The notes beneath the pieces were generated by a model that had not been told where the DNA came from, did no database searches, and saw only the letters and a list, made by a program, of their open reading frames with translations. Positions 35,538 through 51,869 of a DNA stretch of 64,000 bases are shown here, one piece after another. Positions within the stretch are counted from its first letter, which is position 1. Each line of letters opens with the position of its first letter. The stretch is from an uncultured Bacillota bacterium (lineage in GTDB: Bacteria > Bacillota > Clostridia > Oscillospirales > Oscillospiraceae): NCBI GenBank assembly GCA_947426945.1, contig CANEFX010000002.1, positions 1 to 64,000 on the forward strand. The letters are read 5' to 3'. A program made the translations under genes and the position numbers.

Positions 35538-36284
35538 TCAGCGTTGGCAGCAGCCTCCGCCGGCGCTGCTGGTGGTGGTGATGGTGTTGGGCGGGAAGAA
35601 TTCGTCCACGGGGAACTGGACGCAGCGGAACATGTCGCAGGGGTCCTGTTCACAATTGTCGTTATCGCAGCTGCAATCCTTGGTGGGGATGCAGTAGTCG
35701 TAGACGGGGATCAGCAGCTGGGTGTCCCGCTCCAGACGGATGATGGAGAACTGGCCCAGGGTGATGAACAACCGGTGCTGATCGCCGCCGGTCACCAGCT
35801 CGTCGCCGAAGCAGGCGGCCACCGCCATGGGGATATCCACGCAGCCGCAGTCGCAGGGGCGGCATTCGCACACATCCACCAGCTTCAGGCTGAGGATCAG
35901 AGGATCGACGGCCTCCACCACTGCGGTGGGCAGATTGGACTGGGGTACACACTGGACCTGACTCTCGTTGTTCTCAGAGGTAAAGCTCTTGGAGCCGCTC
36001 TCGCTGCCGAAGAGCACCACCCGCTTGCTGAACGCAGCCAGACCGCAGACCTGAACGGGGCGGGCCGCCCCCACGAAGGCGTCGGCGGTAATACGGTAGA
36101 AATACCGCACATCCACAGTATAGAAACCCCGGTTGAAGGTAACCGGTTCCACATCAATGTACGCGTACAGCAGCTCGGCACTTCCGGCCTTGATGGACTG
36201 GGCCCGATCAATCACCTCCTGAGAGCAGCGGGTGGGATAAACTCTCAGATCCTCAACGCAGTCCTTATCGAAAGATATAGCGTC
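35538..36284 (-). pseudogene. Cysteine-rich Clostridia protein, 5' end cut off at the prophage junction
   Basis: The open frame runs from 36284 to the stop at 35538 (248 codons) but has no ATG, GTG or TTG in its first 23 codons; it starts right after an in-frame TAA at 36285. Residues such as DKDCVEDLRVYPTRC before the first GTG (36215) look like real protein, continuing smoothly into AELLYAYIDVEPVTFNRGFY and RVVLFGSESG. Cysteines cluster in CECRPCDCGC and near DCSCDNDNCEQDPCD. From memory this matches a common Clostridia family of about 260 residues whose N-terminus carries a start and a short extra segment, missing here. The function is unknown; a spore-surface role is only a guess. It seems to be split by prophage insertion. 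Confidence 0.7.
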
Positions 36285-36338
36285 TTATATATTGCATTTT
36301 TTACGTCGACGAATTATCTCTCTTTAGAGAATTCATGA
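36285..36338. other. Likely prophage attachment junction (left end)
   Basis: This 54-bp AT-rich stretch lies between the truncated host gene and the phage endolysin gene. ATATA-GCGTCT-TATAT at 36275-36290 is an imperfect inverted repeat exactly where host coding sequence stops, a plausible recombinase core. The matching right junction would be outside the window. Confidence 0.55.
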
Positions 36339-37091
36339 CTATCTCCGGCTCCGCAGCGCGAAAGCGGCGGCCTCGGCTTTGGTGCACAGCGCCTGCGGCC
36401 GGGTGGAGGCGGTGATGATCCCTGCCTCCTTTGCCCTGTCCCACTCCCCGTTGCTGCGGGCCCAGGCGGGCACGTCCTTCTCCTCCCGCTCCTTCAGGTA
36501 GCGGTCCATAAATCCCTTCCACTGCTCATAGGTCACAATCTCTTCCTCCTCATAGCTCACATAGGGCAGAAAGCCCCATTTCCTCCAGGTCCGGGCGTTA
36601 TGTCCGGGAACCTTCCCCAGATTCCCCACAGCGGTAATCTGTACGCCGTTGACCCACTTGGGGGAGCACTCCACGGCCAGCCCATCCCCGATGTACAGCC
36701 CGATGTGTCCTGGCAGCCACACCGCCGCCCCGGGGACAATCTCCCGGAAATCGTCGGTCACACCTCTGCACAGCCGGATCATTCCGTCGGCGCTGACGTC
36801 CGGCACACCATTGGCATTGTACCGCGCCCCGCCGTAGTTTGCGGAGAGGTCGCCGCTCCAGCCCCACAGAATGCCCTTGATCAGGTTGACGCAGTCAAAG
36901 CCGAAGGTATCGGCTGTGGCGGCGTGAATCATCCTAGTCCGGGCGGCGGCCCTGTTATAGTCGTGGTTATTCGTATACCGCTTCTTGTTGGCGGCGGTCA
37001 TGGGCGCTCCGAAACAGCCCATGACATACAGGGTCTTGTAGTGCTCCGCCACATCCACGCAGCGCCGGACCAGCTCCTGAGCCCTCATCAT
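36339..37091 (-). CDS. Phage endolysin, NlpC/P60-like
   Basis: A 250-residue cell-wall hydrolase. The N-terminal 165 residues have an NlpC/P60-type active site: C67 in DTFGFDCVNLIKGILWGW and H129 in LPGHIGLYIGDG. The C-terminal 80 residues (ARSNGEWDRAKEAGIITAST, LCTKAEAAAFALRS) resemble an SLH-like or binding module. It would cut peptide bonds in peptidoglycan at the end of lytic growth. The ATG overlaps the holin stop (ATGA). It is the last phage gene before the left junction. Confidence 0.85.
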   Translation of the reverse strand: MMRAQELVRRCVDVAEHYKTLYVMGCFGAPMTAANKKRYTNNHDYNRAAARTRMIHAATADTFGFDCVNLIKGILWGWSGDLSANYGGARYNANGVPDVSADGMIRLCRGVTDDFREIVPGAAVWLPGHIGLYIGDGLAVECSPKWVNGVQITAVGNLGKVPGHNARTWRKWGFLPYVSYEEEEIVTYEQWKGFMDRYLKEREEKDVPAWARSNGEWDRAKEAGIITASTRPQALCTKAEAAAFALRSRR

Positions 37092-37303
37092 GCCTTATCA
37101 CCGTCCTGCCTGTCCACCACATCCTGCACCTTCTGACTCTGGGTGCCGAAGTAAAAGGCGATAATCACAGCATAGATGGTCATAAAGTCCTGGCTGATCT
37201 GCCCGGTGCAGGCCATATAGGCGAACACGCCGGTCAGCACCAGTGTCACCAGGGATTTGACGCTCATCAGCGCCCCCAGGCGCTTCAAAATCACATTATT
37301 CAT
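37088..37303 (-). CDS. Phage holin
   Basis: A 71-residue protein starting at 37303 (AAAGG 9 bp upstream), not at the earlier ATG that touches the ribosome site. It begins NNVILKRLGALMSVKSLVTL, has two hydrophobic segments (VTLVLTGVFAYMACTG and TIYAVIIAFYFG) and a charged C-terminus. Size, topology and the overlap with the endolysin gene fit a class II holin that opens the membrane for the endolysin. Confidence 0.8.
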   Translation of the reverse strand: MNNVILKRLGALMSVKSLVTLVLTGVFAYMACTGQISQDFMTIYAVIIAFYFGTQSQKVQDVVDRQDGDKA

Positions 37304-37541
37304 TGCGTTCATCCTTTCCGTTTCTCAGTACAGTCTTCAAGCACATCAGCAGCAGCTCCCCGCCGAAGAAGGCCAGGATCACCCCCAGCAGGGCGGCGGG
37401 GTCGTGGCCGGTGCGGGAGAGAATACGCAAGCTGTAAGCGCTGGCCACCGTCCCACAGATGACGCACCAGAGCACCATCAGCTTGGCGAACAGGTGCGGG
37501 ATGCGCATGAGCCTCCGCCATGCGGCTTTCAGCCGTTTCAC
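37296..37541 (-). CDS. Second small holin-like membrane protein
   Basis: An 81-residue protein starting at GTG 37541, which overlaps the stop of the upstream gene (GTGA). It has a basic amphipathic N-terminus (KRLKAAWRRLMRI) and two membrane helices (LFAKLMVLWCVICGTVASAY and AALLGVILAFFGGELLLMCL). It overlaps the holin gene by 8 bp. It may be a second holin, an antiholin or a membrane anchor of the lysis module; I cannot tell which. Confidence 0.72.
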   Translation of the reverse strand: MKRLKAAWRRLMRIPHLFAKLMVLWCVICGTVASAYSLRILSRTGHDPAALLGVILAFFGGELLLMCLKTVLRNGKDERNE

Positions 37542-37873
37542 AGTCCCAGCCTCCCCAGCACCATCCCCAGCACGGCTGCCAGCACCAGCCAGATGGAATT
37601 CTCCTTCAGCTTGTCCAGCAGACGGCCGGGCTTGATCTTCTGGTCCTCCTGATAGGAAACCACCTTGTCCAGCTTGCCGTCCATTTCGGTGATCTTGCTT
37701 TCCAGCCGCTGTTCCCGCAGGTTTCGCTCTTCCCGATCCTTGTAGTAGTCTTTCCGGAAACGCTCCTCCCGGTCCTGGCCGGTCTCCAGCGCCTCCACAC
37801 GCTGCTCCAGCAGGGCCAGCCGGGTCGCGCTGCGGCACTCCCGCCCCGGCTCGTTGACACATGTTTCAGGCAT
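37538..37873 (-). CDS. Coiled-coil protein with C-terminal membrane helix (XhlA-like)
   Basis: A 111-residue protein. Residues 20-85 are a charged coiled coil (ALLEQRVEALETGQDREERF, EQRLESKITEMDGKLDKVV) and residues 92-110 a membrane helix (SIWLVLAAVLGMVLGRLGL). The layout is like haemolysin XhlA proteins that work with holins in Bacillus phages. Its stop overlaps the start of the next small membrane gene. Role in lysis is inferred. Confidence 0.75.
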   Translation of the reverse strand: MPETCVNEPGRECRSATRLALLEQRVEALETGQDREERFRKDYYKDREERNLREQRLESKITEMDGKLDKVVSYQEDQKIKPGRLLDKLKENSIWLVLAAVLGMVLGRLGL

Positions 37874-37876
37874 TGG

Positions 37877-38008
37877 TTATACCTCCTCTTCTCCGGTGAT
37901 TTCATTCAGTTCCGCCCGGGTCAGCCGTCCGGCGTCGACCAGGGCCTCCAGCCGGGGCTTGTCCCACAGACGGGGGTAATATTTTTGGGCCAGCTCGTAC
38001 ACGCTCAC
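37877..38008 (-). CDS. XkdX-family phage protein
   Basis: A 43-residue protein from GTG 38008, which overlaps the previous stop (GTGA). It reads SVYELAQKYYPRLWDKPRLE, then VDAGRLTRAELNEITGEEEV, the XkdX pattern (aromatic-rich start, K/R-L-VxxGxIT-xE-EITGE). XkdX proteins lie between tail-fibre and lysis genes in many Firmicutes phages; their function is unknown. Confidence 0.85.
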   Translation of the reverse strand: MSVYELAQKYYPRLWDKPRLEALVDAGRLTRAELNEITGEEEV

Positions 38009-38346
38009 AAACTCACCCCCTGCATGGCCGCCAGAAAGTCCACATCCGCCCTCAGCTGCTCCTGCGAGGTGGGGGCGGCGCGGGGTAGTGCGGCCCGATC
38101 TGCGGCGATCTCCGCCTCCGTGCGGGCAACTGCCTGCTCCCCGTCCCAGCGGTACAGCGGAATGCCATCCATGGCCCGCAGGGACGGGTTCTCGTCCCCG
38201 TTGAGGAAAAGCCGGAACTGATACCCGCCCTGCTCGTTGATGCGGCCCTGGTCATCCGTGGTGATGTAGTGGCGGTTGTAGATGGGAGTCATCATTATCT
38301 CAAGCTCATTGGTCCCATCAATTTCTCTGGCGCTGTAATTATCATA
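38005..38346 (-). pseudogene. Small tail-associated phage gene, 3' part, split by IS200/IS605
   Basis: The frame ending at 38005 continues upstream past the ATG at 38295 (YDNYSAREIDGTNELEI before MMTPIYNRHYITTDDQGRIN) up to the IS left end at about 38346. On the other side of the IS, at 40113-40096, a start codon with AGGAGG begins MSRDFD in the same frame. Joined, they give a 119-residue protein. The product resembles small proteins between tail fibres and XkdX. An internal restart at 38295 could still give a 96-residue product, but AGGAGG is missing there. Confidence 0.72.
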
Positions 38347-38457
38347 CGTGGCGTAATACCCCTGCCTTTAGGCATGGGGATATAAGCCACACCTTGTTCC
38401 CCCGTAAAAAGGCTTCCGGGGATTGCATTAGATATCGTTGAATGGTATAATGCGGTC

Positions 38458-38850
38458 ATGGAATATAAAAGTAATCACAATGTGGTGTACTCCTGCAAGT
38501 ATCATGTAGTCTGGTGCCCAAAATACCGCCGTAAGGTCTTGGTCAACGGTGTCGATGTGCGCTTAAAGGAACTCATAGAAGAAATCTGCAACGAATACCG
38601 CATCGACATCATAGAGATGGAAATCATGCCTGACCACATCCATTTGCTCATGGAGGTAGGCCCGCAATTTGGCGTACACAAAGCGGTAAAACTAATAAAA
38701 GGGCGAACTTCCCGCATTTTGAGGCAAGAGTATGGATGGCTCCGCTCAAGGCTTCCGTCTTTGTGGACAAACTCATATTTTGTTTCTACCGTTGGCGGAG
38801 CTCCTTTGTCGGTCATCAAGCAGTACATAGAGAACCAGAAGAATGTGTGA
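38458..38850 (+). CDS. tnpA: IS200/IS605 transposase TnpA (Y1 HUH)
   Basis: A 130-residue Y1 transposase. The HUH motif is H60-I-H62 in IMPDHIHLLMEV, and the catalytic tyrosine is Y123 in VIKQYIENQKN. The length is normal for TnpA, and nothing looks broken. It would cut single-stranded DNA at the end hairpins, most easily at replication forks. tnpB starts 9 bp after its stop. Confidence 0.95.
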   Translation: MEYKSNHNVVYSCKYHVVWCPKYRRKVLVNGVDVRLKELIEEICNEYRIDIIEMEIMPDHIHLLMEVGPQFGVHKAVKLIKGRTSRILRQEYGWLRSRLPSLWTNSYFVSTVGGAPLSVIKQYIENQKNV

Positions 38851-38859
38851 GGTGTAGAG

Positions 38860-39972
38860 ATGGAATACAGCTATAAATTCCGCATCTACCCCGACACGGT
38901 ACAGCTACAGCAGATACAGAGGACTTTTGGCTGCTGCCGGTTCGTCTGGAATCACTATCTTGCTTTGCGGAAAGAACTCTATGAGCAAAACGGAAAGACA
39001 ATGAACTATAATGCCTGCTCCGGGGATATGACACAGCTCAAGAAAATCCTGTCATGGCTGAAAGAGGTAGATGCAACCGCTCTGCAATCCTCTCTGCGTG
39101 ATTTGGACACTGCATACCAGAACTTCTTCCGGCGTGTGAAGCAGGGTGGGAAACCCGGGTATCCGAAATTCAAGAGCAAGCACGACCGCCAAAGAAGCTA
39201 CAAGAGCAAGTGCGTAGGTACGAATATCAAAGTGCTGGATAAGGCGGTGCAACTTCCGAAGCTCGGTTCTGTGAAGTGCCGTATCAGCAAAGAGGTCAAG
39301 GGCCGCATCCTGTCCGCAACAGTCAGTCAGAATCCCAGCGGGAAGTATTTCGTTGCCTTGTGCTGTACCGATGTGGAGATTGAACCGCTGCCCTCTACCG
39401 GGGCGGTGGCCGGTATCGACATGGGTCTGAAAGCATTTGCAATTACCTCCGATGGTATGGAGTATCCGAACCACAAACACCTTGCAAAATCTCAGAAGAA
39501 ACTTGCCAAACTCCAGCGGCAGCTGTCCCGAAAATCAAAGGGCAGTAACCGCCGGGAAAAGGCGAGAATCCAAGTAGCCCGTCTCCATGAGTACATCGCC
39601 AATCAGCGGAACGATATGCTCCACAAACTGTCTACCGGCCTTGTACGTGACTATGACCTGATAGCGATAGAGGATTTAGCGCCCTCCAACATGGTTAAAA
39701 ATCACAAGCTGGCCCAGTCTATCTCCGACGCATCCTGGGGTGAGTTCCGACGGCAGTTGGAGTACAAAGCGGCGTGGTACGGGAAACAGATTGTCACGGT
39801 TGACCGCTTCTTTCCGTCCAGTCAGCTATGTTCCTCCTGCGGTGCCCAGTGGCCCGGTACGAAAGACCTGTCTGTACGGGAATGGACTTGCCCCGTGTGC
39901 GGCACTGTCCATGACCGGGACGTGAACGCCGCAAAGAATATCTTGAATGAGGGGCTGCGCCTGTTGGCGTAG
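38860..39972 (+). CDS. tnpB: TnpB, RNA-guided nuclease of IS605
   Basis: A 370-residue TnpB. RuvC residues are D187 ([14 protein letters not shown]), E271 ([12 protein letters not shown]) and D354 ([13 protein letters not shown]); the zinc finger pairs are CSSCGAQW and WTCPVCG. The helical N-terminus [20 protein letters not shown] is typical. TnpB uses an RNA from the right end to cut the empty donor site, keeping the element in the genome. All catalytic residues are intact, so it is probably active. GAGGTG lies before the ATG. Confidence 0.95.
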
Positions 39973-40095
39973 TCCGTACATACGGTAGGGCGGGACACGC
40001 CCGAACCTATACACTCGGGGAGATTGTGTAAGTCCTCGCATGGTGCAGGCCGTAGTCAGCGAACCGAGAATCCCCCGGCTTTAGCCATGGGGAGT
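39900..40095 (+). ncRNA. Probable omega (reRNA) guide RNA of TnpB
   Basis: In IS605 elements the guide RNA covers the 3' end of tnpB and the right-end hairpins, with the guide sequence just beyond the element. Here structured sequence with AGCC/GGCT-type hairpins continues to the right end, and the guide would be the phage DNA from 40096 on. Inferred from the family; the 5' limit is a guess. Confidence 0.45.
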
Positions 40096-40113
40096 GTCAA
40101 AATCGCGGCTCAT
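40096..40113 (-). pseudogene. 5' stub of the split small tail gene
   Basis: Six codons (MSRDFD) after a good AGGAGG site 7 bp upstream, which directly follows the stop of the tail-fibre gene. The reading frame then enters the IS right end. It is the missing start of the gene at 38005-38346. Confidence 0.7.
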
Positions 40114-40124
40114 TGTATGACCTC

Positions 40125-41060
40125 CTATAACCTGGCATCTGCTATCACAGCAAATGCGTAGACATGACTCGTATCGACGGTCTCCCCTCCGAACCAGACC
40201 GAATCAAATCCATCATCCTTAATAGCATTTGCATAAGCCGGGACATCCAGTGTAACGCCAGGCGCCCAATAACCCACTCTATTGAGATCATTACCATGGT
40301 ATAACGTCACTGCCGGAATGGCGCGCATCTTTACCGGGAATTGTACATTGCAAATCATGTGGGTGTTGTTATAAAATTCTCGAGATGCAAAATAGAAGTC
40401 AGACACCCAATAATACCTCTGTTCTTCAGCCAGCGCCTGCTGGAAGTTGGGCGGCGGGTCGTTGAGGACCCACTTACCGTCTGCAGTTTGGCGGGCAAGG
40501 GTCTGGCGGTCGCCAAACTCCAGTTTGCATGCAAAAGGCACTAAGTCGACGCCAGACGAATTATTAATCGCGACATGGGGTTGATGACTACCACCGCCCA
40601 AAAAATAGAGAGTCGCTATGTCCTGGGAAAAAAAGACTGGATGCGCATCCTCCCCGTCCCAGATTTGAATAATACCGCTGCCAAACACCAAGTCTCCGTT
40701 TGAAAACAAGACAGACATAGTCACCAGTTTGCCAAGCAAAAAATCAGTCAAACCCGGTTCAAGCTTTTGCCAGATCGTTTCGCCAGGGGCCCGAAGGACT
40801 AATCCGTCTTTAGTAAGAGCAACCGATCCGGTAGTCTTTAACCAGCTGCCTATCGTGTACACCCAGGGTGCGGTCCACTCCGTCTGTCCCGTCTGGTTGA
40901 TGGGAAGCTGCCCTCCGCCCTGCTGGGATCCGCCGCCCGCGAAATACCAGTTGCGCAGCAGATTGGGGTTGCTCACTGGCACAACCGCGTTACCCAGCCG
41001 CCGGTCAATCTCTTCGCCGCTGTAGCTAAGGTCTATCCCGGGCACATCACACGTACTCAT
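40125..41060 (-). CDS. Phage tail-fibre-like protein
   Basis: A 311-residue protein; the ATG at 41060 lies inside the end of the previous gene, and the longer frame is that gene's shadow. The N-terminus has PGIDLSYSGEEIDRRLGNAV and NLLRNWYFAGGGSQQGGGQL, then WPINQ-like collar sequence (TGQTEWTAPWVYTIGSWLKT). Such NLLxNWYF sequences start receptor-binding or fibre domains in many gut Firmicutes phages. The rest is beta-rich with a C-terminal SHVYAFAVIADARL. Host-receptor binding is inferred from position and composition. Confidence 0.75.
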   Translation of the reverse strand: MSTCDVPGIDLSYSGEEIDRRLGNAVVPVSNPNLLRNWYFAGGGSQQGGGQLPINQTGQTEWTAPWVYTIGSWLKTTGSVALTKDGLVLRAPGETIWQKLEPGLTDFLLGKLVTMSVLFSNGDLVFGSGIIQIWDGEDAHPVFFSQDIATLYFLGGGSHQPHVAINNSSGVDLVPFACKLEFGDRQTLARQTADGKWVLNDPPPNFQQALAEEQRYYWVSDFYFASREFYNNTHMICNVQFPVKMRAIPAVTLYHGNDLNRVGYWAPGVTLDVPAYANAIKDDGFDSVWFGGETVDTSHVYAFAVIADARL

Positions 41061-41481
41061 ACAATTCCCACCATTCATCTGTCCCTGGCTCAGATGTGTT
41101 TCCGTCCCGTCGGGAGTGCCACAGCTTGTCCTTATGGCTGACGATATCCCCATTGTTGTAAGCATCGTGCGCGCCTGTAGGCTGCGCCCAAACTGGATAT
41201 CCGTCGGCGTCCAGGCTTACCGGAATGTACAAAGTATCAGTGGTATCCGGCGGCCACTCTGCCGCGCTGGTATGTGCCTGCGTAGTCCTGTAGAGGATGG
41301 GGTCTCCGTTGCTGTCTGCTTTATAGGAGACGTACATCTCCCCCTTATATTGGACACCTGGAGCCCACTGAGGGAATACCGTCGCCACCTCTCTGGCCTG
41401 GCTCAATGGAAGAGTATTGGCGTAAATCTGGAGCGCACGGCGCAGCTGTTCCATACCCTGAATATCTTTTGCAGTAAACAT
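41047..41481 (-). CDS. Phage protein with carbohydrate-binding (ChiC/CBM5/12-like) module
   Basis: A 144-residue protein. The N-terminal part has helices (KDIQGMEQLRRALQIYANTL); the C-terminal 50 residues have the small CBM5/12 pattern, AYNNGDIVSHKDKLWHSRRD followed by NTSEPGTDEWWELYEYV with conserved tryptophans. It probably binds cell-surface sugar as part of the tail tip or fibre. AAGGAGG lies before the ATG. Confidence 0.8.
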   Translation of the reverse strand: MFTAKDIQGMEQLRRALQIYANTLPLSQAREVATVFPQWAPGVQYKGEMYVSYKADSNGDPILYRTTQAHTSAAEWPPDTTDTLYIPVSLDADGYPVWAQPTGAHDAYNNGDIVSHKDKLWHSRRDGNTSEPGTDEWWELYEYV

Positions 41482-41496
41482 TTTTGTTGATCCTCC

Positions 41497-41778
41497 TTAC
41501 ACAGCCCCCAGCAGGGCTCTGATCATGTCCTCAGCTGTGTATTGGGGCTCGGGCTCCAGCTCGGGCTCCGGGATGGGCAATGGCTTCCAGCCGGTCACGG
41601 CAGGAATGCCGTCCCGGTCCTCTACGGTGAGCTCCCCAAACGGATAGTTTTCCAGCGTCTCCGGCGCACCAAACTCTGGCGGAATGACCGCATAGCCCTC
41701 CGGAACTGGAATTTCTGCGGCGGTGGTCTGGTTGTCATGCCCCCCCGCCTCATTGGGAGTGATTTTAATAATTGTCAT
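41497..41778 (-). CDS. Small phage tail-region protein, unknown
   Basis: A 93-residue acidic, proline-rich protein (EIPVPEGYAVIPPEFGAPET, PLPIPEPELEPEPQYTAEDM) with a strong CAGGAGG site. The C-terminus ends in a short helix (DMIRALLGAV). Many Firmicutes phages carry a similar small protein between fibre genes; no function is known. Confidence 0.7.
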   Translation of the reverse strand: MTIIKITPNEAGGHDNQTTAAEIPVPEGYAVIPPEFGAPETLENYPFGELTVEDRDGIPAVTGWKPLPIPEPELEPEPQYTAEDMIRALLGAV

Positions 41779-41790
41779 GTCATCCTCCTG

Positions 41791-42453
41791 TCAACCGATA
41801 GCAGCATAAGAATAATTCTCGCGTAATACATTTAACGAACCAATGCGCTGATAGGGATTCACTTCGTTCTGATAACCCCAAGTCCAGGTTATGCCATTGA
41901 CCGGCCATTGTACGTTAATAGAGATAGCATCTACCTCCGCATAGCCTTGGACATAATATGAGGCGCGCCAATAAGAGACTGCACCCGTAGATGGCTTGAC
42001 AAATATACATGTTTCCTGAAAAGAGCTATTTGGTGAACCAGAAATAAATACAACCTTCGGATCAAACCCAAAAAACAATGATCGGATCCCTTGCTGTCCC
42101 GCAATCCCTCCCGGGTCATCTCCCGTATAACTTCCCATAGCAACATTCGCTCTACGTCCTGTTTCAGCCTGAAGCGCTGCAAGCCACTGATAGATAGCAT
42201 AAAGAATATCATTAGGCGTGGATGCGGCGCTCCCGCCGTAGATTTCCGCAACACCGTCCGAGAGCAGGGATTCTTTTCCCAGATTTGTGCCCAGCACGGC
42301 CCAGCCGGGTGGGTTTAGCTTCAGGTCTGTAAAAAGCTGCCCGGAGGAAAATGCCCGAATAAAATCTTCGTAAGCAGGATAAAGGGTCATGGCATTTGGC
42401 GCCCCCTGAAGGGCATAGGCGTTGCCGGCCCCCTTCTGTACTCCATCTGTCAT
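41791..42453 (-). CDS. Phage tail-fibre or baseplate accessory protein, unknown
   Basis: A 220-residue protein, AAAGGAA before the ATG. It begins TDGVQKGAGNAYALQGAPNA and is beta-rich with many aromatic residues (WPVNGITWTWGYQNEVNPYQ). Composition and location among fibre genes suggest a virion surface protein, possibly receptor-binding. No recognised domain. Confidence 0.65.
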   Translation of the reverse strand: MTDGVQKGAGNAYALQGAPNAMTLYPAYEDFIRAFSSGQLFTDLKLNPPGWAVLGTNLGKESLLSDGVAEIYGGSAASTPNDILYAIYQWLAALQAETGRRANVAMGSYTGDDPGGIAGQQGIRSLFFGFDPKVVFISGSPNSSFQETCIFVKPSTGAVSYWRASYYVQGYAEVDAISINVQWPVNGITWTWGYQNEVNPYQRIGSLNVLRENYSYAAIG

Positions 42454-42469
42454 ACAAATTTCATTCCTT

Positions 42470-43765
42470 TCAAAATACTCCGCACTGAATTGCCCCGGAG
42501 GGCCAGGTAAAATATCGGGGAAAATAGCTGTCGACCTCTACAAGGGCTTTCTCAATGCTGTTGGCCCCCTCCGGGGTCAGAAACTGCATGGTCTCGGGCG
42601 GTTTTGCCTCGATGTACAGCGGCTGAGCGGTTCGCACTGCTTCCACATTTTGCAGATATGCCGTCATCCGCGAGCGTGTCGGGATGTCTTCTTTTTTCCA
42701 CCGTACGTCTGGTTTTAGCGGTATCGAGTAGCCTTGTCCGGCCAGCCGCTCAGACAAATAGTCCACTGCAATATTGACTCGGTTCATGTCCGTGTGGTTG
42801 TATGCGCCCTTGGATATACATTTGACAAACCACGTCCGCTCTTCTGCGCTCCAGCTGCCCGCCCCCTGCTGGTACATGGCCCGCAAAGTGTCCAAGTCGG
42901 ACACCGTCCGGTCTGTAATCAGCCGTATCATATAGATATCCTGGGAGCTTTCCAGCCCTGCGCGGTCCCGCACCATGATGTGGATGGTGTTCTCTCCCAC
43001 CTCCAGGGGCACGGCAGCCAGATAGGGTGGCTGCGTCAGGACAAAGCTCCCGATGGTCACCCGTTCCACCCCGGAGCCGCCGTCGCTGGCCTCCACAAGC
43101 ACCTCCGCACTCTCTGTGTCTACGACACGGTGCGCATCCGGGAGCCGGACATACATCCAGGGCGGTACGGTATCCACCTGGTAAGCCGCCGAAACAGTGG
43201 AGACATTGCCGTCGTAATCGCTGACCGATACGGTAACGGTGTGGGGTCCGTCTGACCAGGTATCTGTAACATTCCTCCGCCACACAAACAGCACCCGGCC
43301 CTGGTCGTCCCGCAGTACCTGTCCATCCCGGTCTCTCAGACAGAGCCGCTCATCTTTTGCAGGGGAGAATGAATACCGATATCCGCCCGGAATAGGCTCC
43401 AGCGTCCCGCCCGGCGGAGAAAAGCTGGCCGGGTTTATTCCGGAGCCTCCCGCCTCATCCACAGCCTCTGCCACGATTACAGGACGGCCTGTGGTAATCC
43501 ATCCGGGAGTGGGAGATATGATAGAGAGCACAGGTCCGATTGTCTCCCGCACTACCAGACGGAGAGCCTGTACCTGTTCCCCGCTCAGGCTGTCCGTCTG
43601 CCCAGCGTCGTTTGCCGCCTCTACCGTCACGGGGAAATAGCCCCCTGGTTGGTGGTAAGAGGTCCCCGTCGGCGTCAACGTCCCCTCGTACCGCCCCGTG
43701 GCCGGGTTGTAGGTAAGGGTAACCCACTGCTCTCCCAGCCTTGCCCGGACCTGCGTTATCGCCAT
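42470..43765 (-). CDS. Phage tail protein with Ig-like domains
   Basis: A 431-residue protein; the ATG at 43765 has GGGAGG 7 bp upstream. Residues 1-300 form several Ig-like or fibronectin-like beta sandwiches: GPVLSIISPTPGWITTGRPV, ATVTVSVSDYDGNVSTVSA-like strands, and VEASDGGSGVERVTIGSF. The C-terminal 110 residues are helical (SDLDTLRAMYQQGAGSWSAE) and carry DMNRVNIAVDYLSERL. It is probably an upper fibre or baseplate protein that links tail tip and receptor-binding parts. Confidence 0.75.
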   Translation of the reverse strand: MAITQVRARLGEQWVTLTYNPATGRYEGTLTPTGTSYHQPGGYFPVTVEAANDAGQTDSLSGEQVQALRLVVRETIGPVLSIISPTPGWITTGRPVIVAEAVDEAGGSGINPASFSPPGGTLEPIPGGYRYSFSPAKDERLCLRDRDGQVLRDDQGRVLFVWRRNVTDTWSDGPHTVTVSVSDYDGNVSTVSAAYQVDTVPPWMYVRLPDAHRVVDTESAEVLVEASDGGSGVERVTIGSFVLTQPPYLAAVPLEVGENTIHIMVRDRAGLESSQDIYMIRLITDRTVSDLDTLRAMYQQGAGSWSAEERTWFVKCISKGAYNHTDMNRVNIAVDYLSERLAGQGYSIPLKPDVRWKKEDIPTRSRMTAYLQNVEAVRTAQPLYIEAKPPETMQFLTPEGANSIEKALVEVDSYFPRYFTWPSGAIQCGVF

Positions 43766-43778
43766 GTATACACCTCCC

Positions 43779-43937
43779 TTAAGCCGGGTTTCCGGGCCAG
43801 GCCCCGCTCTGCCACTGCATAGACACGGGAACCAGATCAATGTCTGCTGCCGCCACGCTCACCAATACGGGCTGACTCGCCTTTGCAGGATCAGGCGTCA
43901 GCAGGACGGAAATGATAACGGGAACACTGTTGGCCAT
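43779..43937 (-). CDS. Small phage tail protein, 52 residues
   Basis: A short gene with AAAGGATGAT before the ATG at 43937 and stop at 43779. It reads ANSVPVIISVLLTPDPAKAS and ends VPVSMQWQSGAWPGNPA. It fits exactly in the gap between the two tail genes (5 bp and 13 bp spacers). Function unknown; likely a virion part or chaperone. Confidence 0.75.
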   Translation of the reverse strand: MANSVPVIISVLLTPDPAKASQPVLVSVAAADIDLVPVSMQWQSGAWPGNPA

Positions 43938-43942
43938 ATGTA

Positions 43943-46144
43943 TCATCCTTTCGGCTTGTCCCAGGACACCATGATAAATCCGGAGGCCCCGGGAACCCCC
44001 GGCTTTCCTTTACCCGGGGCTTGGGTAATCACAAATTCCCAGCCCCTGGGCCGTCCGTCCGGCCAGAAGAGTTGCCGCCAGTATCCCTGTCCCGGGTCTC
44101 CGCCTGCGCCGCCCGCGCCGCCGTCGCCCGAGCCGGGCAGAGGCGCGGCCACGCCGGCGCGGCAGAAGGTCTGCCCGTTGGCGATATCGGTGTACCCGTT
44201 TGGGTACACCGTCCCGTTGGCAGAGGAGTACACCCCGAATGTGGACGGTTCTCCCGCCTCGCCGGGCTCTCCGGGCTGGATGGACGGCGTGCCGCCCCGG
44301 CCCCGGTGATAGGGGACGATCTGTCCCGGATTCAGGTGTATCACGCCGAACCACACCCGGCCGCCGCTGCCGTCCGGTCCCGGATCTCCAAATCCGGCCG
44401 CCACATCGTGCCCGGGCAAAACGCCTTCTCCACGCACAAAGCCGTCTTCACCCAAACCGCCCCCCTGCCCGCCGTCAGACAGGACCAGCCGATACTCGGT
44501 TACCCCGTCCACGGCGGCAAACACGCCGTCATCTGCGTCCATAATGGCAAATTCCGTGTAGAGATAGCTGCCGTCAGCCTGGAGCAGCGTGGACCGGCAG
44601 CCCTGCATCACCCCGTCCTGAAACTGAAAGGTCTGGGACATGCGCCGGGCGGCCACGGCAGCGCTCTCATCCAGCCATACGGTGTCCACGTCTCCGATTT
44701 CGCTGGATGGATCTCCCCGGCCGGTCAGCTCCAGGATGTTTCCGCCGTACTGGCTCAAAATCAGCCGGGCGGCGGCCAGAGCCTGATCTCTGGTGTGAAG
44801 GAAAGGGTTGGCGATTGTCACCGTGTCCTCGCTGCTGGCGGCGTTGCCCGATACTACGTACTCAGTGTTGTTCTCATCCGCCAGCCGAAAGATCAGGGCG
44901 GCCAGGCTCCTGTTTGCCTTCACCTCAGGGTAAGCCTCCAGGTTGTCCAGATCGTATCTGTTTCCCTGGTTCCAAAGCGGCTCTGCGGTCAGGTGCCCGT
45001 CCTCCTGTCTGGCTCTGGGCCACGTTCCGGAGGCCTGACAGATCCAGCGCAGGATGTCCTTGCACTTTTTATTCGTCACATCTTCCCGGCTGTTGGCCTC
45101 CACCGGCCTGTCGGCATAGGCCGGGTCGGCATGCCAGCGGCTGGAAAAATTCGGTCCCAGCTGAGATACCAGGGCCTGCAGCCAGCCGCTCAGGGTCGTG
45201 GGCAGTGTGTCGGGGACGATAAACGTCCGCTCGGAGAGCAGCCCGATGATATCCACCAGATACCAGCTTATGGTGATCTCGTTGGAGGAGGCCTTCCAGC
45301 CATCCCCCGCCAGGTAAAAGACCCCCAGTCTCAGCCATTCCATGCCGTTGGCTGTCTCACAGCCCAGATAGATATCCACACCCTGCCGCTCTTCAATGGA
45401 CTGAAAAATACTGTCCTTTTTTCGCGGCTCATACCGCCGGTCCGCGTTGTCTATTGATACTCTGACGCTCCCGTATGGCTGCGACAGGCAGGAAAACTGT
45501 CCCTGCAGCGTCGCCGTAAAGGCGGCAAGATTGTCGGGGATCCACCGCTCAAAGTAGCCGGAGAATATCTCCACCAGCCGCACCCGCCGGAGCGGCAGCG
45601 ACCACCTCTCCACTGTGATCCGGATCGCGTCCGGGTTGTAGACTCTGAATCCGCTGAGCGACGCCTGCCGCTGCACATTGCCTGTAAATTTCCGGCTGTA
45701 AAAGGATACGCCGCCCGCAAGCACGTCCACCGTAAAATCCGTCGGTACGCCGTCCACTGGATCGCCGTCAAAAACCACGCTGCACGCCTGTAAGATGCTC
45801 ACGCCGGTAAAGTTGAGCTGGACAAACGCCCCTTCAAGCTGTCCTTCGGGGCCGCTCAGCTCCGCCGAAGCATAGCCCATATCCCCCGGGACACTGTAGT
45901 CATCCGGGAACAGCTCAAAGCTTCTATCCAGCAGCCATCGGTTGCCCTCCAGGGTCGCATACCGGGCCGGATCGTCGATCCGCTCATCGTGCAGCTGCTC
46001 GCTCCTGCTCCAGAGGGCCTCCGGGGACGACGTCACCGGCAGGATCACTTCATCCGGGTCAAAAAGTCCCACCTTTGCCGCCAGCTCCATATACCGGGGC
46101 GATCCCACTATGGCCTCCCGCCAGGCCTGACTGGTCTGTCTCAC
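43943..46144 (-). CDS. Phage tail-tip/baseplate protein with glycine-rich C-terminus
   Basis: A 733-residue protein from GTG 46144 (GGGAG upstream). Residues 1-480 resemble tail-associated hub proteins: repeated beta domains such as TDFTVDVLAGGVSFYSRKFT, IRITVERWSLPLRRVRLVEI and ADRRYEPRKKDSIFQSIEER. The C-terminal 200 residues are Gly-, Asp- and Pro-rich, partly collagen-like (PSIQPGEPGEAGEPS, GSGDGGAGGAGGDPGQG). It probably forms the tail tip with an extended flexible end. It follows the 128-residue protein, the usual distal-tail position. Confidence 0.77.
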   Translation of the reverse strand: MRQTSQAWREAIVGSPRYMELAAKVGLFDPDEVILPVTSSPEALWSRSEQLHDERIDDPARYATLEGNRWLLDRSFELFPDDYSVPGDMGYASAELSGPEGQLEGAFVQLNFTGVSILQACSVVFDGDPVDGVPTDFTVDVLAGGVSFYSRKFTGNVQRQASLSGFRVYNPDAIRITVERWSLPLRRVRLVEIFSGYFERWIPDNLAAFTATLQGQFSCLSQPYGSVRVSIDNADRRYEPRKKDSIFQSIEERQGVDIYLGCETANGMEWLRLGVFYLAGDGWKASSNEITISWYLVDIIGLLSERTFIVPDTLPTTLSGWLQALVSQLGPNFSSRWHADPAYADRPVEANSREDVTNKKCKDILRWICQASGTWPRARQEDGHLTAEPLWNQGNRYDLDNLEAYPEVKANRSLAALIFRLADENNTEYVVSGNAASSEDTVTIANPFLHTRDQALAAARLILSQYGGNILELTGRGDPSSEIGDVDTVWLDESAAVAARRMSQTFQFQDGVMQGCRSTLLQADGSYLYTEFAIMDADDGVFAAVDGVTEYRLVLSDGGQGGGLGEDGFVRGEGVLPGHDVAAGFGDPGPDGSGGRVWFGVIHLNPGQIVPYHRGRGGTPSIQPGEPGEAGEPSTFGVYSSANGTVYPNGYTDIANGQTFCRAGVAAPLPGSGDGGAGGAGGDPGQGYWRQLFWPDGRPRGWEFVITQAPGKGKPGVPGASGFIMVSWDKPKG

Positions 46145-46150
46145 TTCAAC

Positions 46151-46537
46151 TCATCTCCCATGGGGTCTCTCCTCCCGAAGCATAAAGGCCAGGCCGTGCC
46201 AGATAGGGCTGGAGCCGTCAAACGCCAGCACCTTGGGCTCGGTGAGAGACTCCACCACAAAGGTGGAGCTCACCGCTTTGTCGCCGTTGTCGGGCAGCAC
46301 CTGTGCGAGAAAGGGCGCTCCGGAGCGCAGCACGGCGAGCACCGGCCGCAGCGGATCGTCGGGGAGGTAGTCGCAGGCATAAAACACCCGCCACAGCTTT
46401 CCACCCCTCACCTCCTGGACGATACGCCTGCTTATCATTTCCACCCTTACAACACCGTCGTCCTCCCAGCATCTGTAATTGTCCCCGTCCACCTGGGGCA
46501 GGGGCCAGCCGCCAATCACCAGCAACGGGTCATACAT
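46151..46537 (-). CDS. Small phage tail-tip protein, unknown
   Basis: A 128-residue protein whose start overlaps the tape-measure stop by 8 bp. It reads YDPLLVIGGWPLPQVDGDNY and VRVEMISRRIVQEVRGGKLW, a beta-rich pattern. Its place between tape measure and tail-tip genes suggests a distal tail or hub component. Confidence 0.65.
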   Translation of the reverse strand: MYDPLLVIGGWPLPQVDGDNYRCWEDDGVVRVEMISRRIVQEVRGGKLWRVFYACDYLPDDPLRPVLAVLRSGAPFLAQVLPDNGDKAVSSTFVVESLTEPKVLAFDGSSPIWHGLAFMLREERPHGR

Positions 46538-49500
46538 CGCTCTTCACCTCCGGATTGGCCCTCGCGGCCGTCCGCAGGCCAGGCAGCAGGATCTCCCCTA
46601 CCTTTTGACCGTCCAGATAGACGTCGCCGGTTCCGCCGGGCGTATTTGCCGCCATTCCCGCCATGCTGGTGGACAGGCCGTTCACCATCCCCACGCCCAC
46701 ATCCTGCATCTGTTGGGGGGTAACGCCGTAGAACTGTTCCCGGATTCGGTCGGTGGAAAAGAGGGCGGCCAGCTCGGAATTGGAAGGGATACGCCCCGCT
46801 CCCGACAGGATATCAGACACACGGTCTGCCATAGCCTGGGCCTGTGCATACAGGGCGGTCTCCATAGAGGCCAGCCCGTCGATCAGCTCTTGTCCGGTGT
46901 TCACGCCTGCCTGAAAAGAGGTGTCCGTCAGGTTGCCCAGTGCGTCCCCCAGCTTGGCGTTGTACTCATTTTCCAAAGCGTCCATCTGCTCTTTGAAAAA
47001 CTCCTCCGCGATTCGGGCGGCAGTCTCCTGCTTCTCCTCCCACAAGGCGTTGTACTCCTCCCACTGCTGGTCGCTCATGGCCAGCAGCTGCCGGGCATAC
47101 TGGGTGGCGCTGTCCACGTCCATCCCCATCACCTCATCCATCAGCCCGCCGGATATGCCCCGGTTTCGGAGCTGATCCAGGGCGTCCCCGTAGGCCTCGA
47201 TGGCGCTGATCTGGTCCTGGAGGGAGCTGAGGGTAAGCCGGTCGTCTTCGGTGTTGAACAGATCGCCGTAGCCGCTGAGCCGGCTTTCCATTTTGTCTTG
47301 CTGATCGGAAACGGCGTCTATCCGCTCCTCCAGCTGGTCCACCAGATTATTCATCTGGTCTGCCCACAACTGGGCCTCCCGGTCTGCCAGGCTCTTGTCG
47401 TACTTGTAAATCTGCTCGGTGACCTTCCGGTACTCGCTGACGTTGGCGTCGTCGGTGAGATAGGCGTCCCGGTACTCAGCCATTTTCCGGTAGTACTCCG
47501 CCTCATCTACCAGGTCGGTGGCCTTCAGGTGGTCCAGCTCCGCCTTCAGCTGCTTGTAGGTCTCCAGATCCTGCTGGGCCTGGGTTTTTGCCTGTTTGCC
47601 GGCGCTCCTGGACGCTCTGGCGGCCCGTGTGGTCTCCCCTGTCACATTGCCCAAGGTGGACCGCAGGCGGTTCATGGCGGCGATCTGTGCGTCAATGGCA
47701 GTAGTGTCCGTCTTTTCGGCGTATAGCCTGGCTGCCGCCATCTCCCAGTAGGCGCTCCCGGCGTGCTGGGCGGAAATGGCCTCCGCCTCCAGCCTGGCGG
47801 CGGTGATCTGGGCCTGCTTCTGGGTCTCCAGGGCGGCGATCTGGTCATTAATTTTGGCGTCGGTCAGATTGATGTACTCCGCCCGGTTGAGGGTGACTGC
47901 CCCGGTCTCCTCATCAATGGCCAGGGCGGCCCCGTAGCCGGCGTCAATCAGATCCTGGGTGGTTTTGTAGCTGAGACTGCCCTCCTCGCTCTGCTCCTTC
48001 AGCGCCTTGGACAGGGTGTCCTCCGCCCCGGAGAGATAGAGAGTTGCCTCCTCCAGCTCCGCTATGCTGACAACGGCCTCCTGAGCAGTATCCCCGGCCT
48101 GCTGGATGCGGTTGGACATATCTTCTGTAGCGCCAGCTGTGTCGTTAGAGGCGGAAGCAACGTCCCCATACTTGTCCAGGACATCGTCCAGTCCATTTTG
48201 GTACTCGTCGTATACCTCCTGCAGTTCCTCAACAGTCTGGATCAGTTCTCTTTCTTTTTGCTCCAGCTCATTTCTGACTCCAATGGCAACCTGCCCGGTT
48301 GCGGCCTCTTTTTCCATTGCCGCCGCGGATTCGGCCCGGACCTGCGCCAGGTCTGCTTCCGCATCCTTCAGCTGCCGGGCAATTTCCATCTGCTGCACCA
48401 GCAGCTCACTGTAAGCCTTGGCGCCCTCATCGGCCACCATCCGCTGTGCTTCCGCTTCAATCAGATTGCGCACTGCGTCGGCAGTCATGTTCAGTTTTCC
48501 AGTCTGCTCGTCATAGGCCAGATTGAGCCCCGGGACAGCCGCGTTCAGCTCTTGTGTCATGTTCAGCAGGGCTTGTTGCTGAGCCGCGTTCAGGTCTCCT
48601 GCCTCAGCCAGCAGCAACAGGGCATCCGCCTGGGCCCGCAGGCCTTCCGCGCTTCCCTCTGCGGCTTTGGCATTGTCCGCCAGCCTGTTTTTTATTTCCT
48701 CCAGGCTGTCCAAGTACGCTTCGGCTTCGCTCTTCGTATCGTCTATTGCGGCCGTAAGCGCCGTAAACGCGCCCACCAGCAGTCCAATCCCAGCGGCGAT
48801 CGGGCCTATTGGCGTAGCCATTAAGGCGGTGCCAAACCCTGTTGTGGCTATAGCAGCCAGAGCCGCTTTGGCCGCGTAGACTGTGAACCCGGTTGCCAGA
48901 ACTCCGCCCGCCGCCGCAACCCCGGTAATAGCGCTCACCAGGATCGGACATTCCTCCACAAAATCAGCCGCCCATGAAAACGCGCCCGTTCCAGCGTCGG
49001 CCAAAACCCCAAGTGCGGGGGTCAGCTGGTCGCCCACGGCAATCTTCAGGTTGTTGGCGGCGTTGGCCGCCATCTGCATTTTTGCCTCGGTGGTGTCGTA
49101 CTTGGCCGCTGCGGTATCGGCCAGCTCGGTGTTGCTGATCCACGCCTGGTTGGCGGTGGACACTGCGGAGGTCAGGGTATCGCTGGCCAGCGCCAGAGAT
49201 TTGAGCATGTTGCTCTGCCGAATGCCGGACAGCCCCAGCTCCTCCAGCACCTGGGTAGCGCTTTCCCCTTGCTCGTCCAGACTGCCCAGTCCGGCAATAA
49301 AGGCCTGAATAGCGGTGATGGGGTCGTTTTTCCATGCGTCGGAAAACTGTTGAGCGGACATCCTGGCAACCAAAGCGAAGCCCTCCAGCTTGTCCCCTCC
49401 GGAGGTGACCGCCTTCTCCATGGCGGTCAGGGTCTGGGTCATGGCGGTGCCGCCGGCCTCCGCCTCGATGCCCACCGAGGACATGGCGGCAGCCAAACCC

Positions 49501-50456
49501 ATGATCTGGGCCTCGGTCAGTCCCGCCAGCTCGCCGGCGGCTGCCAGACGGCTGGCCATGTTAGTAATCTCGCTCTCGCTGGTGGCAAAGTTGTTGCCCA
49601 GAGCCACGATGGTGCTGCCCAGCCGCTCATAGTCCTCCGCCGCCGTCCCGGTGATGTTGGCGAACCGTGCCAAAGCGGTGGCAGCCTGGTCGGAGGTCAG
49701 GTCTGATACGTTGCCCAGGTTGACCATGACCTCGGAAAAGCTCAGCAGATCCTCCTTGGCAATGCCCAGCCGGGCGGCCGCCTCCACTACCTGGGCGATC
49801 TCGCCGGTGGTGGCCGGCATCTCGGTGGACAGCTCTTTGATGGCGTCCCCCATGCCGGCCAGCTCCGTTTCGCTGAGCTTGGCCACCTTGTTCACGTTGG
49901 CCATGGCCGTCTCGAAGTCCATGGAAGCGTCCACACAGGCGTGGATTGCGTCCGCAATCTCTTTCAGAGCCATGGCAACGCCCGCCGCTTGCAGGGCGGA
50001 GGCCAGCGTACTGACCGAATCCCCGGCCTGTTTGGTAGCGTTGCCAAAGCCGTCGATGGACCTGGCCGTCCCGTCGGCGCTGTCTCGGGCTTCTTTCAGG
50101 TATTTGCTGTTTTCCACAAGTTCCCGGTCCAGACCAATTAATTCTGCCTTGGCCCGGTTCAACTGCTGGCGGTACCTGTCTGTGATATTGCTTTCTTCTC
50201 CATAAATTTCGGTGGAGCGTTTTACAATATCGTTCAGCGTCTTGATTTTTTCCTTTTGCTGGTCGATCTGCTCAGACAACAGCTTATTTTTGGCGGTCAG
50301 GGCCGCCACTGTGTTGGCCTGGCCCTTAAACTGCGCCTCTGACAGGGCAATTTCGCTTTTCAAATTGCGCAGCGCCCCGTTTATAGAGGTCATAGCCTGC
50401 TTAAACTGGGTCTCCCCGTCCAGGGCCAGCCTCGTGGTTATACTTCTAACGGCCAT
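46530..50456 (-). CDS. Phage tail tape measure protein
   Basis: A 1308-residue protein, by far the longest in the prophage. The N-terminus is helical coiled coil with LRNLKSEIALSEAQFKGQAN. A TP901-type core follows: ELAGMGDAIKELSTEMPATT, IAQVVEAAARLGIAKEDLL, AGLTEAQIMGLAAAMSSVGI. Hydrophobic segments near residues 500-560 (ILVSAITGVAAAGGVLATGF) would enter the host membrane. The C-terminal half is coiled coil again. It fixes tail length and helps DNA entry. A MITE lies only 20 bp upstream of its start codon. Confidence 0.93.
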   Translation of the reverse strand: MAVRSITTRLALDGETQFKQAMTSINGALRNLKSEIALSEAQFKGQANTVAALTAKNKLLSEQIDQQKEKIKTLNDIVKRSTEIYGEESNITDRYRQQLNRAKAELIGLDRELVENSKYLKEARDSADGTARSIDGFGNATKQAGDSVSTLASALQAAGVAMALKEIADAIHACVDASMDFETAMANVNKVAKLSETELAGMGDAIKELSTEMPATTGEIAQVVEAAARLGIAKEDLLSFSEVMVNLGNVSDLTSDQAATALARFANITGTAAEDYERLGSTIVALGNNFATSESEITNMASRLAAAGELAGLTEAQIMGLAAAMSSVGIEAEAGGTAMTQTLTAMEKAVTSGGDKLEGFALVARMSAQQFSDAWKNDPITAIQAFIAGLGSLDEQGESATQVLEELGLSGIRQSNMLKSLALASDTLTSAVSTANQAWISNTELADTAAAKYDTTEAKMQMAANAANNLKIAVGDQLTPALGVLADAGTGAFSWAADFVEECPILVSAITGVAAAGGVLATGFTVYAAKAALAAIATTGFGTALMATPIGPIAAGIGLLVGAFTALTAAIDDTKSEAEAYLDSLEEIKNRLADNAKAAEGSAEGLRAQADALLLLAEAGDLNAAQQQALLNMTQELNAAVPGLNLAYDEQTGKLNMTADAVRNLIEAEAQRMVADEGAKAYSELLVQQMEIARQLKDAEADLAQVRAESAAAMEKEAATGQVAIGVRNELEQKERELIQTVEELQEVYDEYQNGLDDVLDKYGDVASASNDTAGATEDMSNRIQQAGDTAQEAVVSIAELEEATLYLSGAEDTLSKALKEQSEEGSLSYKTTQDLIDAGYGAALAIDEETGAVTLNRAEYINLTDAKINDQIAALETQKQAQITAARLEAEAISAQHAGSAYWEMAAARLYAEKTDTTAIDAQIAAMNRLRSTLGNVTGETTRAARASRSAGKQAKTQAQQDLETYKQLKAELDHLKATDLVDEAEYYRKMAEYRDAYLTDDANVSEYRKVTEQIYKYDKSLADREAQLWADQMNNLVDQLEERIDAVSDQQDKMESRLSGYGDLFNTEDDRLTLSSLQDQISAIEAYGDALDQLRNRGISGGLMDEVMGMDVDSATQYARQLLAMSDQQWEEYNALWEEKQETAARIAEEFFKEQMDALENEYNAKLGDALGNLTDTSFQAGVNTGQELIDGLASMETALYAQAQAMADRVSDILSGAGRIPSNSELAALFSTDRIREQFYGVTPQQMQDVGVGMVNGLSTSMAGMAANTPGGTGDVYLDGQKVGEILLPGLRTAARANPEVKSDV

Positions 50457-50476
50457 CTGGCCACCCCCTTTAATAC

Positions 50477-50564
50477 GGAGTGTCCTAAACGCAGAGATAT
50501 TATTTGTGTTTCCCCCGCCTCCGGCGGGGGAAATATGTCAATATATCTTCTCTGTGGACACTCC
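50477..50564. repeat. Dispersed 88-bp hairpin MITE, copy B, with 10-bp target duplication
   Basis: Perfect 9-bp terminal inverted repeats GGAGTGTCC and GGACACTCC enclose a TTTCCCCCGCC/GGCGGGGGAAA hairpin. CCTTTAATAC is present directly on both sides (50467-50476 and 50565-50574), a clear target-site duplication. It inserted between the ribosome site region of the tape measure gene and the plus-strand cassette, in opposite orientation to copy A. Confidence 0.88.
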
Positions 50565-50635
50565 CCTTTAATACAAGCTCTTGCGCTCAGGCCTTCTCTG
50601 TGATATGCTGATAAAAATGAATGGAGGTTGACAAC

Positions 50636-51187: not shown

Positions 51188-51191
51188 TTCT

Positions 51192-51218
51192 GCCCGGGGC
51201 TCCCGCCCCGGGCTTTTT
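51192..51218 (+). terminator. Terminator of the PH-SHOCT gene
   Basis: GCCCGGGG and CCCCGGGC form a perfect stem, followed by TTTTTCG, 5 bp after the stop codon. Confidence 0.88.
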
Positions 51219-51297
51219 CGCTTTTCGTAGGGCTGCTCCTCCTCCCGCCCGCAGGCGTCTTTCGGCCAAAAAATCAAAAAAACTTTTTCAAAACCTC

Positions 51298-51326
51298 TTG
51301 ACATTTACACGACTACGTGTTATTAT
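51298..51326 (+). promoter_or_regulatory. Strong promoter with internal dyad operator (cassette)
   Basis: TTGACA (51298-51303), 17-bp spacer, TATTAT (51321-51326) overlapping a TATAAT. The spacer contains a perfect inverted repeat ACACG-ACTA-CGTGT (51307-51320), so a repressor could cover the promoter. It faces three tiny genes. Confidence 0.75.
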
Positions 51327-51349
51327 AATATCAGAAAGGGGGAATGCAG

Positions 51350-51481
51350 ATGGCGAAACGAAAACGGGCAACGAAAAAGCCCACCAAAAACTCCATCGAC
51401 TGGCGGCAAACCTTAGTCGGAGCTCTGGTGGACTTAATCGTTGGCACAGCGCTTCTCCTGATAGCAAAGCTTCTGGATTAG
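51350..51481 (+). CDS. 43-residue basic membrane peptide (cassette gene 2)
   Basis: The frame MAKRKRATKKPTKNSIDWRQ continues into a hydrophobic helix ending LLLIAKLLD. GGGGGAAT lies 6 bp before the ATG, and the start is 24 bp from the -10. A strongly basic tail plus one helix is a form seen in small toxins, antiholins and membrane regulators. No family is recognised. Real expression is likely given the strong promoter. Confidence 0.65.
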   Translation: MAKRKRATKKPTKNSIDWRQTLVGALVDLIVGTALLLIAKLLD

Positions 51482-51654: not shown

Positions 51655-51655
51655 T

Positions 51656-51856: not shown

Positions 51857-51869
51857 CCAATCTTATCCC

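Follow-up and report, generated by a model that had tools for sequence, protein, structure and literature searches.

A cysteine-rich protein gene in this genome is divided at its 33rd codon by a prophage, and we think it quite probable, on the evidence of the sequences, that a phage of the SPbeta/skin type has inserted itself here in a conserved spore-envelope gene, that it would be precisely excised in the sporulating mother cell, and that the gene is a new target of sporulation gene-intervening elements. The window (the whole stretch of DNA analysed) spans the first 64,000 bases of a contig 140,619 bp long, from a 2.4-Mb draft genome of 52 contigs, labelled G000, and its best-matching relatives with names, among the best 80 of 563 matches, were Lawsonibacter sp., Flintibacter muris and Pseudoflavonifractor sp. 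The element interrupts a conserved coding frame of which both halves are present on the contig. Codons 33-275 and the stop lie at 35538..36269 on the minus strand, as located from related copies and a search of the genome itself, and codons 1-32 were found by the latter search at contig 79754-79849, also on the minus strand, beyond the window.

A sequence-only reading of this DNA had proposed that a prophage interrupts a conserved cysteine-rich gene, that the open minus-strand frame 36284-35538 starts right after an in-frame TAA, and that the missing start codon and first residues lie past 64000 at the far prophage end, next to a recombinase; these proposals held. The TAA sits in phage DNA, the first residues of the frame (DAISF) are encoded by the phage end, and the gene sequence proper begins with D33 at 36269. 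A match to the gene was present in 33 of 40 related genomes, and the intact copies read from relatives possess an N-terminus that is absent from the frame in the window. In the intact genus relatives, the start lies 32 codons further upstream and opens a block MPEKVVPGPV...EAVCIHTKKIFDSC[RK] that is followed by DKDC. A search of G000 with the N-terminus of the relatives gave a match at contig 79739-79849 (minus strand), which places the far end of the prophage in the same gene; a far end in a different gene would, by the terms of the earlier reading, have refuted its proposal.

The two junctions have in common a GA crossover core, with which the Asp33 codon begins (36268..36269 on the minus strand, and contig 79752-79753 at the far junction). 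The phage half-site ATATATAAGACGCTATATCTTTC at 36270..36292 (minus strand) is a near-perfect inverted repeat of the half-site GGAAGATATAGCGCCTTATATAT at the other junction, and the two combined make up the attP. The tRNA-Arg gene at 35265-35341 was considered as the attachment site and rejected because the core sits within the split gene. Exact excision at the common core would restore the frame: a join at the shared GA yields a stop-free protein of 275 aa that is identical to the intact protein of the relative G003 in 255 of 277 aligned columns. Joined frames of 241-322 aa were stop-free in 40 of 40 split pairs tested (the own genome and 39 relatives, with the codon-33 pair of G016 left out and its junctions read separately), and they scored at least as high as the sum of their parts in all but one of these pairs, the exception being G389. 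At codon 33 (site A), the GA was the tied-best join in 19 of 20 pairs, the best join of G442 lying elsewhere. That excision of the prophage would be precise is well supported at the level of sequence.

The first 27.7 kb of the prophage occupy 36270..64000 of the window, and the element runs on to contig position 79751, for a length of 43,484 bp with one core counted. A scan of ten of its proteins against PHROGs gave matches to replication initiation, ParB-like and integrase families and to several virion and lysis functions, all of the latter on the minus strand: an endolysin-like protein that is the first gene within the element (36339..37091; phrog_3513, E 2e-14), the tail tape measure protein (46530..50456), the major head protein (54660..56003), the head maturation protease (56060..56767), the portal protein (56760..57986) and the terminase large subunit (58185..59951). 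A two-gene pair resembling IS200/IS605 elements (38458-39972; 130 aa and 370 aa), presumably TnpA-like and TnpB-like respectively, also resides inside the prophage close to its left junction.

At the far junction, 42 bp from the core, lies the gene for a large serine recombinase of 505 aa (contig 78192-79709, plus strand), so that the element encodes a site-specific recombinase at its own junction. The protein matches PF00239 (Resolvase) and PF07508 (Recombinase) above the cut-off and the zinc ribbon PF13408 at 21.8 bits, below the cut-off of 25.3; it is also an integrase match in PHROGs (phrog_95, E 2e-101), and its best PDB match is YokA of SPbeta (9dxd, E 2e-38), which we take to be SprA. 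By its size of about 500 aa and its domains, the protein is assigned to the large serine recombinases of the SPbeta type. A comparison of 18 element sets identified no directionality factor among the element ORFs, and the sole lead is a small ORF at contig 68628-69041 (minus strand) that recurs in nine of those sets and for which Pfam gave nothing at E values of up to 1. Directly upstream of the recombinase gene, and overlapping it, is an ORF of 421 aa (contig 76940-78205) whose start resembles those of AbiH-type abortive-infection proteins.

The same gene is split in many other genomes. Within the genus, the gene was matched in 60 of 64 genomes and is split in 13 of these 60, at codon 33 in ten (G000, G001, G005, G012, G014, G016, G048, G051, G065 and G074) and near codon 153 in four (G041, G055, G059 and again G016). 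The gene of G016 is in three pieces, with an element of ~41 kb at codon 33 and one of ~3.2 kb at codon ~153, both of which have a recombinase of their own (L040, L041), and the first part in G059 is visible for only 21 codons, at a contig edge. In a sample of the order, the gene was matched in 327 of 395 genomes and is split in 32 of them, about a tenth, a count made up of 30 clear splits among 38 re-examined genomes together with G000 and G012, and a lower bound because genomes with a single match (save G414) were left out of the re-examination. These splits fall at codon 33 in 14 genomes, at codon ~72-78 (site C) in six and at codon ~153 (site B) in 12; the two parts share a contig, in the order and on the strand required for excision, in 22 of the 32, and are on separate contigs in nine. 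The gene of G025 (C2:66543-97159, partly L057) forms three pieces, covering about codons 10-38, 33-72 and 65-273, and the strand of the middle piece is opposite to that of the others, as though recombination between inverted sites had turned it around; excision alone would not restore this gene because of that inversion. Splits in further families were found in a sample of the class. Genomes whose several matches are adjacent pieces (G347, G420, G266 and G433) were rejected as insertions, as were two with additional gene fragments (G034 and G453), and G061 was rejected as a split on account of a contig break within the gene; G398 and G414, which are unclear, stand outside the split count, as does G049, whose contig ends exactly at the junction.

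A serine recombinase, whole or in part, is present in the junction loci of all 30 order-sample splits examined for it (the 32 less G180 and G424) and in 13 of 15 genomes of the class sample. The recombinase frame ends within ~200 bp of the junction in 29 of the 30 (in G025 a fragment lies by the junction), and that of G090 is 3.7 kb away. Among the site-A elements of the genus, the recombinase is at the N-side junction in eight and at the C-side junction in G016 and G048. In a rapidly computed maximum-likelihood tree with 39 recombinases (20 from site A, 14 from site B and five from site C), drawn without the broken 244-aa frame of G001 and a 169-aa fragment at the locus edge of G025, each site group lies on one side of a branch, with support of 72, 100 and 100 for A, B and C, and the sites change twice on the tree, which is the minimum, against a mean of 15.7 when shuffled; details of the tree are unsure owing to some long branches. 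Since each site corresponds to one clan of recombinases on this tree, the three clans appear each to be adapted to their own place in the same gene.

A number of indications suggest that the product of the gene is probably a protein of the spore surface or spore envelope. Upstream of the start, in 28 of the 33 loci read, is the motif CACM-N15-CATANNAT, which we take to be a promoter of the sigma-K type; its CATA box lies 54-118 bases before the start codon, and the other five loci comprise one CACT-N16 variant and four without the motif. The stricter pattern CACC-N15-CATARNAT occurs twice in G000, before the split gene and before a long collagen-repeat gene (G000:C22:22700-24757, L069) that is presumably of the BclA type. 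It occurs four times in G012, before the split gene, a 47-aa cysteine-glycine protein that we assume to be of the YjcZ type, a 70-aa ORF and one position without a clear gene start, and four times in G011, three of them without a clear gene start. Such counts prove little by themselves because the reversed pattern also matches (once in G000, twice in G011 and once in G012, versus 2, 4 and 4 for the forward one), and the match before the BclA-like gene is the telling one.

The distribution of the gene also follows that of SpoIVA. In the class, of which 293 genomes were compared, it was matched in 148 of 220 with SpoIVA versus 5 of 73 without it (p 4e-21), or, with 48 of the 153 matches set aside as weak (E above 1e-30), in 101 of 220 versus 4 of 73 (p 2e-11). 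In the order, the figures were 318 of 375 versus 9 of 20 (p 9e-5), which leaves 57 genomes with SpoIVA that have no match to the gene and nine without SpoIVA that do; these tables were crossed by hand, and the p values ignore shared ancestry. The cysteine-rich protein matched no family in Pfam or NCBIfam, its cysteines are concentrated at its end, and its structure model, mostly beta strand, is of low confidence, so that the reading as a spore-envelope protein is drawn from its promoter, its composition and its distribution among genomes, neither family nor fold being informative.

The sigK-like gene of G000 is itself split, on contig 15 (C15:12759-23949, L211), into an N-terminal part at 12759-12968 and a C-terminal part at 23503-23949, with an element of ~10.5 kb and its own 572-aa serine recombinase frame in between. 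The C-terminal frame of this sigK-like gene ends early. Excision of this kind may therefore already be practised by the host. In the complete genome G011 (C1:3055148-3195553), the sigK-like pieces lie 139 kb apart, one of them has two internal stops, and a weak recombinase match (L214) lies beside one piece.

We propose that a temperate phage of the siphovirus type, equipped with an SPbeta/skin-type large serine recombinase, has integrated at codon 33 of the conserved, probable spore-envelope gene and would be retained as a prophage in the germ line, the forespore. During sporulation, the recombinase and a putative directionality factor, expected within the element and similar to the partner in C. 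difficile, would recombine the two junctions in the mother cell, whereupon the element would depart as a circle. The events would be ordered, such that sigma-K is first rebuilt by excision and the split gene is then rebuilt and read by sigma-K from its own promoter, the product passing into the spore coat or exosporium. The gene would further be a general hot spot across Clostridia, used by three clans with a site each, and certain of the elements there would have been reduced to a recombinase with one to three other genes. That the element is skin-like and spore-linked had been offered earlier as conjecture, and it now finds support at the level of sequence in the sigma-K-like promoter, the association with SpoIVA, purifying selection, recurrence at three sites with dedicated recombinases, and the occurrence of attP in viral contigs.

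The smallest elements of this hot spot are found at site B, where seven that we list (G520, G618, G585, G336, G346, G389 and G361) measure only ~1.4-3.1 kb. Their type of recombinase, of ~280 aa at loci L171, L167-L169, L215-L219, L223 and L225, is short: eleven aligned sequences end at ~275-300 aa, directly at the start of the downstream gene half, and three that were scanned contained the Resolvase and Recombinase domains only, with neither zinc ribbon nor coiled coil. These short forms look constrained, with dN/dS of 0.04-0.16 in the nine of 11 pairs that gave a value, mostly at dS over 1. Beside them are genes of host type (NUDIX and pyruvate kinase in G361; HAD, heavy-metal HMA and GAF in G585; five ORFs scanned), and no phage gene was noticed on reading the other, unscanned ORFs of the small elements. 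As far as the accessible part of a report on long serine integrases indicates, their coiled coil helps to control direction, and its loss is tolerated in one of them and abolishes recombination in the phiC31 integrase (PMC10754689), from which it follows that the short forms might cut without a partner or need a new one. It is conceivable, if somewhat doubtful, that these elements have lost their phage genes, shortened their recombinase and gained genes of host type, to become a fixed programmed DNA splicing in some Clostridia by which the mother cell permanently deletes metabolic genes so as to assemble a single spore-envelope gene. Were the small elements to be cut out, the mother cell would lose the host-type genes beside the recombinase, and this, if true, would be a case in which metabolic genes are eliminated from a terminally differentiating bacterial cell as part of its programme.

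Other accounts of the split gene have to be weighed. The one that survives best, improbable as we judge it to be, is an active lysogeny without developmental timing, in which vegetative cells see the phage leave and re-enter the gene, or DNA damage induces it, so that only chance would repair the gene. The element has virion genes, and no mother-cell promoter was recognised by eye upstream of its recombinase. In four elements (L039, L041, L046 and L048), the sequence GAACATTCGTTT upstream of the recombinase start loosely resembles a LexA box, which suggests ordinary prophage induction and may tie excision to DNA damage. The expected attP, CTATATCTTNCGANNAAGATATAG as written from the junctions of several genomes, is intact in seven viral contigs, in each of which an SPbeta-type recombinase lies 20-50 bp off; these recombinases are 54-66% identical to that of the prophage in their best segment and have ~500 residues in six contigs and 123 in L237, and no sequence of the split gene was found in the examined parts of the seven contigs. 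Such an attP points to circular phage DNA, in some three independent cases because five of the seven contigs have near-identical recombinases. In one viral contig record (L235:1-1932), parts of two different site-A recombinases flank one attP, as if two phages had recombined there. Repair by chance would, however, hardly maintain the constraint that split copies appear to be under, the small elements without a noticed phage gene persist with conserved recombinases, and the promoter type ties the need for the gene to the mother cell; excision timed to sporulation is the account that we prefer.

There is a slim chance that the insertions are plain disruptions, by way of a conserved attB, of a dispensable gene whose split copies are recent or decaying. 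The gene is not strictly essential, as the 57 SpoIVA-bearing genomes of the order without a match imply, the broken recombinase frame of G001 would suit decay, and a number of splits may have arisen only after the compared genomes diverged. Against this, split copies show purifying selection: in a hand-chosen set of pairs, several with dS over 1 and one (G325/G442) undefined, the dN/dS of the downstream half was 0.00-0.14 in 16 of the 18 split-split pairs with a value (G041/G055, at 0.365, and G336/G389, at 0.225, being the exceptions) and 0.06-0.29 in seven intact pairs. Low values alone are no proof of selection in the split state because an insertion may postdate the divergence of a pair. 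In G079, G220 and G170, with dN/dS of 0.04-0.09, the split is probably old because their recombinases have diverged too (branches of 0.27-0.37). The stop-free joined frames, the convergence of three clans on one gene and the conservation of the short site-B recombinases themselves argue likewise against disruption.

It is very improbable that the C-terminal part works alone, as a truncated gene with an internal start. A 225-aa ORF does begin at GTG 36215, a start which, if used by homologues, would have spoken against the earlier reading; none of the intact relatives read begins there, and their N-termini led us to reject this candidate. The conserved DSC-DKDC block and the N-terminus would be lost from such a protein, and the promoter and start remain with the far half. 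That chimeric contigs of metagenome-assembled genomes have placed phage DNA beside the gene halves is hardly credible, even with G000 a draft of 52 contigs and many relatives MAGs, in view of the same junction design in independent genomes, among them G136 and the single-contig G012, and of the predicted attP in viral contigs.

Developmental gene splitting has so far concerned a handful of genes, and here one gene, in an order rich in gut bacteria, is split at three codons by elements of three clans. The comparison makes it possible to ask, in a testable form, whether phages pick late mother-cell genes as places where damage is harmless to the germ line or whether the host gains a timing switch. 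The gradation from complete phages down to elements with hardly anything besides a recombinase offers material for studies of domestication, a likely spore-surface protein is named, and natural serine recombinases with defined attB and attP, short forms included, are put on offer.

The sporulation genes known earlier to be split, as given in the portions of the reports available to us, are sigK, spsM, spoVFB, gerE and yabG (PMC10747680, PMC5595907), and searches of open-access literature, preprints aside, listed no title or abstract on the present gene or on gene splits in this family. Gene splitting as such is known, and the target gene, the convergence on three sites, the breadth and the small forms dominated by a recombinase appear to be new. 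There is a close likeness to SPbeta in spsM of Bacillus subtilis, likewise a temperate phage with the same type of recombinase, whose precise excision rebuilds a spore-envelope gene, as is predicted here; the gene, the host and the att sequence differ, and no SprB-like partner was identified in the present element (PMC4191935, as seen in part). With gin in gerE of B. cereus, so far as the consulted text describes it, the small elements have in common that the intervening DNA carries serine recombinases and, as appears for the small elements too, is not a phage, and gin shows that a phage is not needed for such an element; gin is 28.6 kb long with three recombinases, whereas the smallest elements here are ~1.4-1.5 kb with one of ~280 aa (PMC5595907). 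Like yin in yabG and vfbin in spoVFB, the prophage is an element in what is probably a late sporulation gene, and the yin recombinase also adjoins the 5' half; yin is described, in the portion of the report seen, as unique to one strain, whereas the present split is widespread (PMC10747680).

With skin in sigK of B. subtilis and C. difficile, the present elements share a serine recombinase, inverted repeats, a rejoining in frame that is here predicted, and recurrence across genera, and skin rejoins its gene in the mother cell, as would be expected here; the target of skin is a sigma factor rather than a presumed structural gene of the envelope with three positions and three clans (PMC5025042). 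According to the accessible part of the same report, vegetative cells of C. difficile as well as the two compartments of its sporangium produce the skin recombinase, and it is a small partner, controlled by sigma-E and SpoIIID, that confines excision to the mother cell (PMC5025042). In G000 itself, sigK is likewise interrupted by an element of the skin kind.
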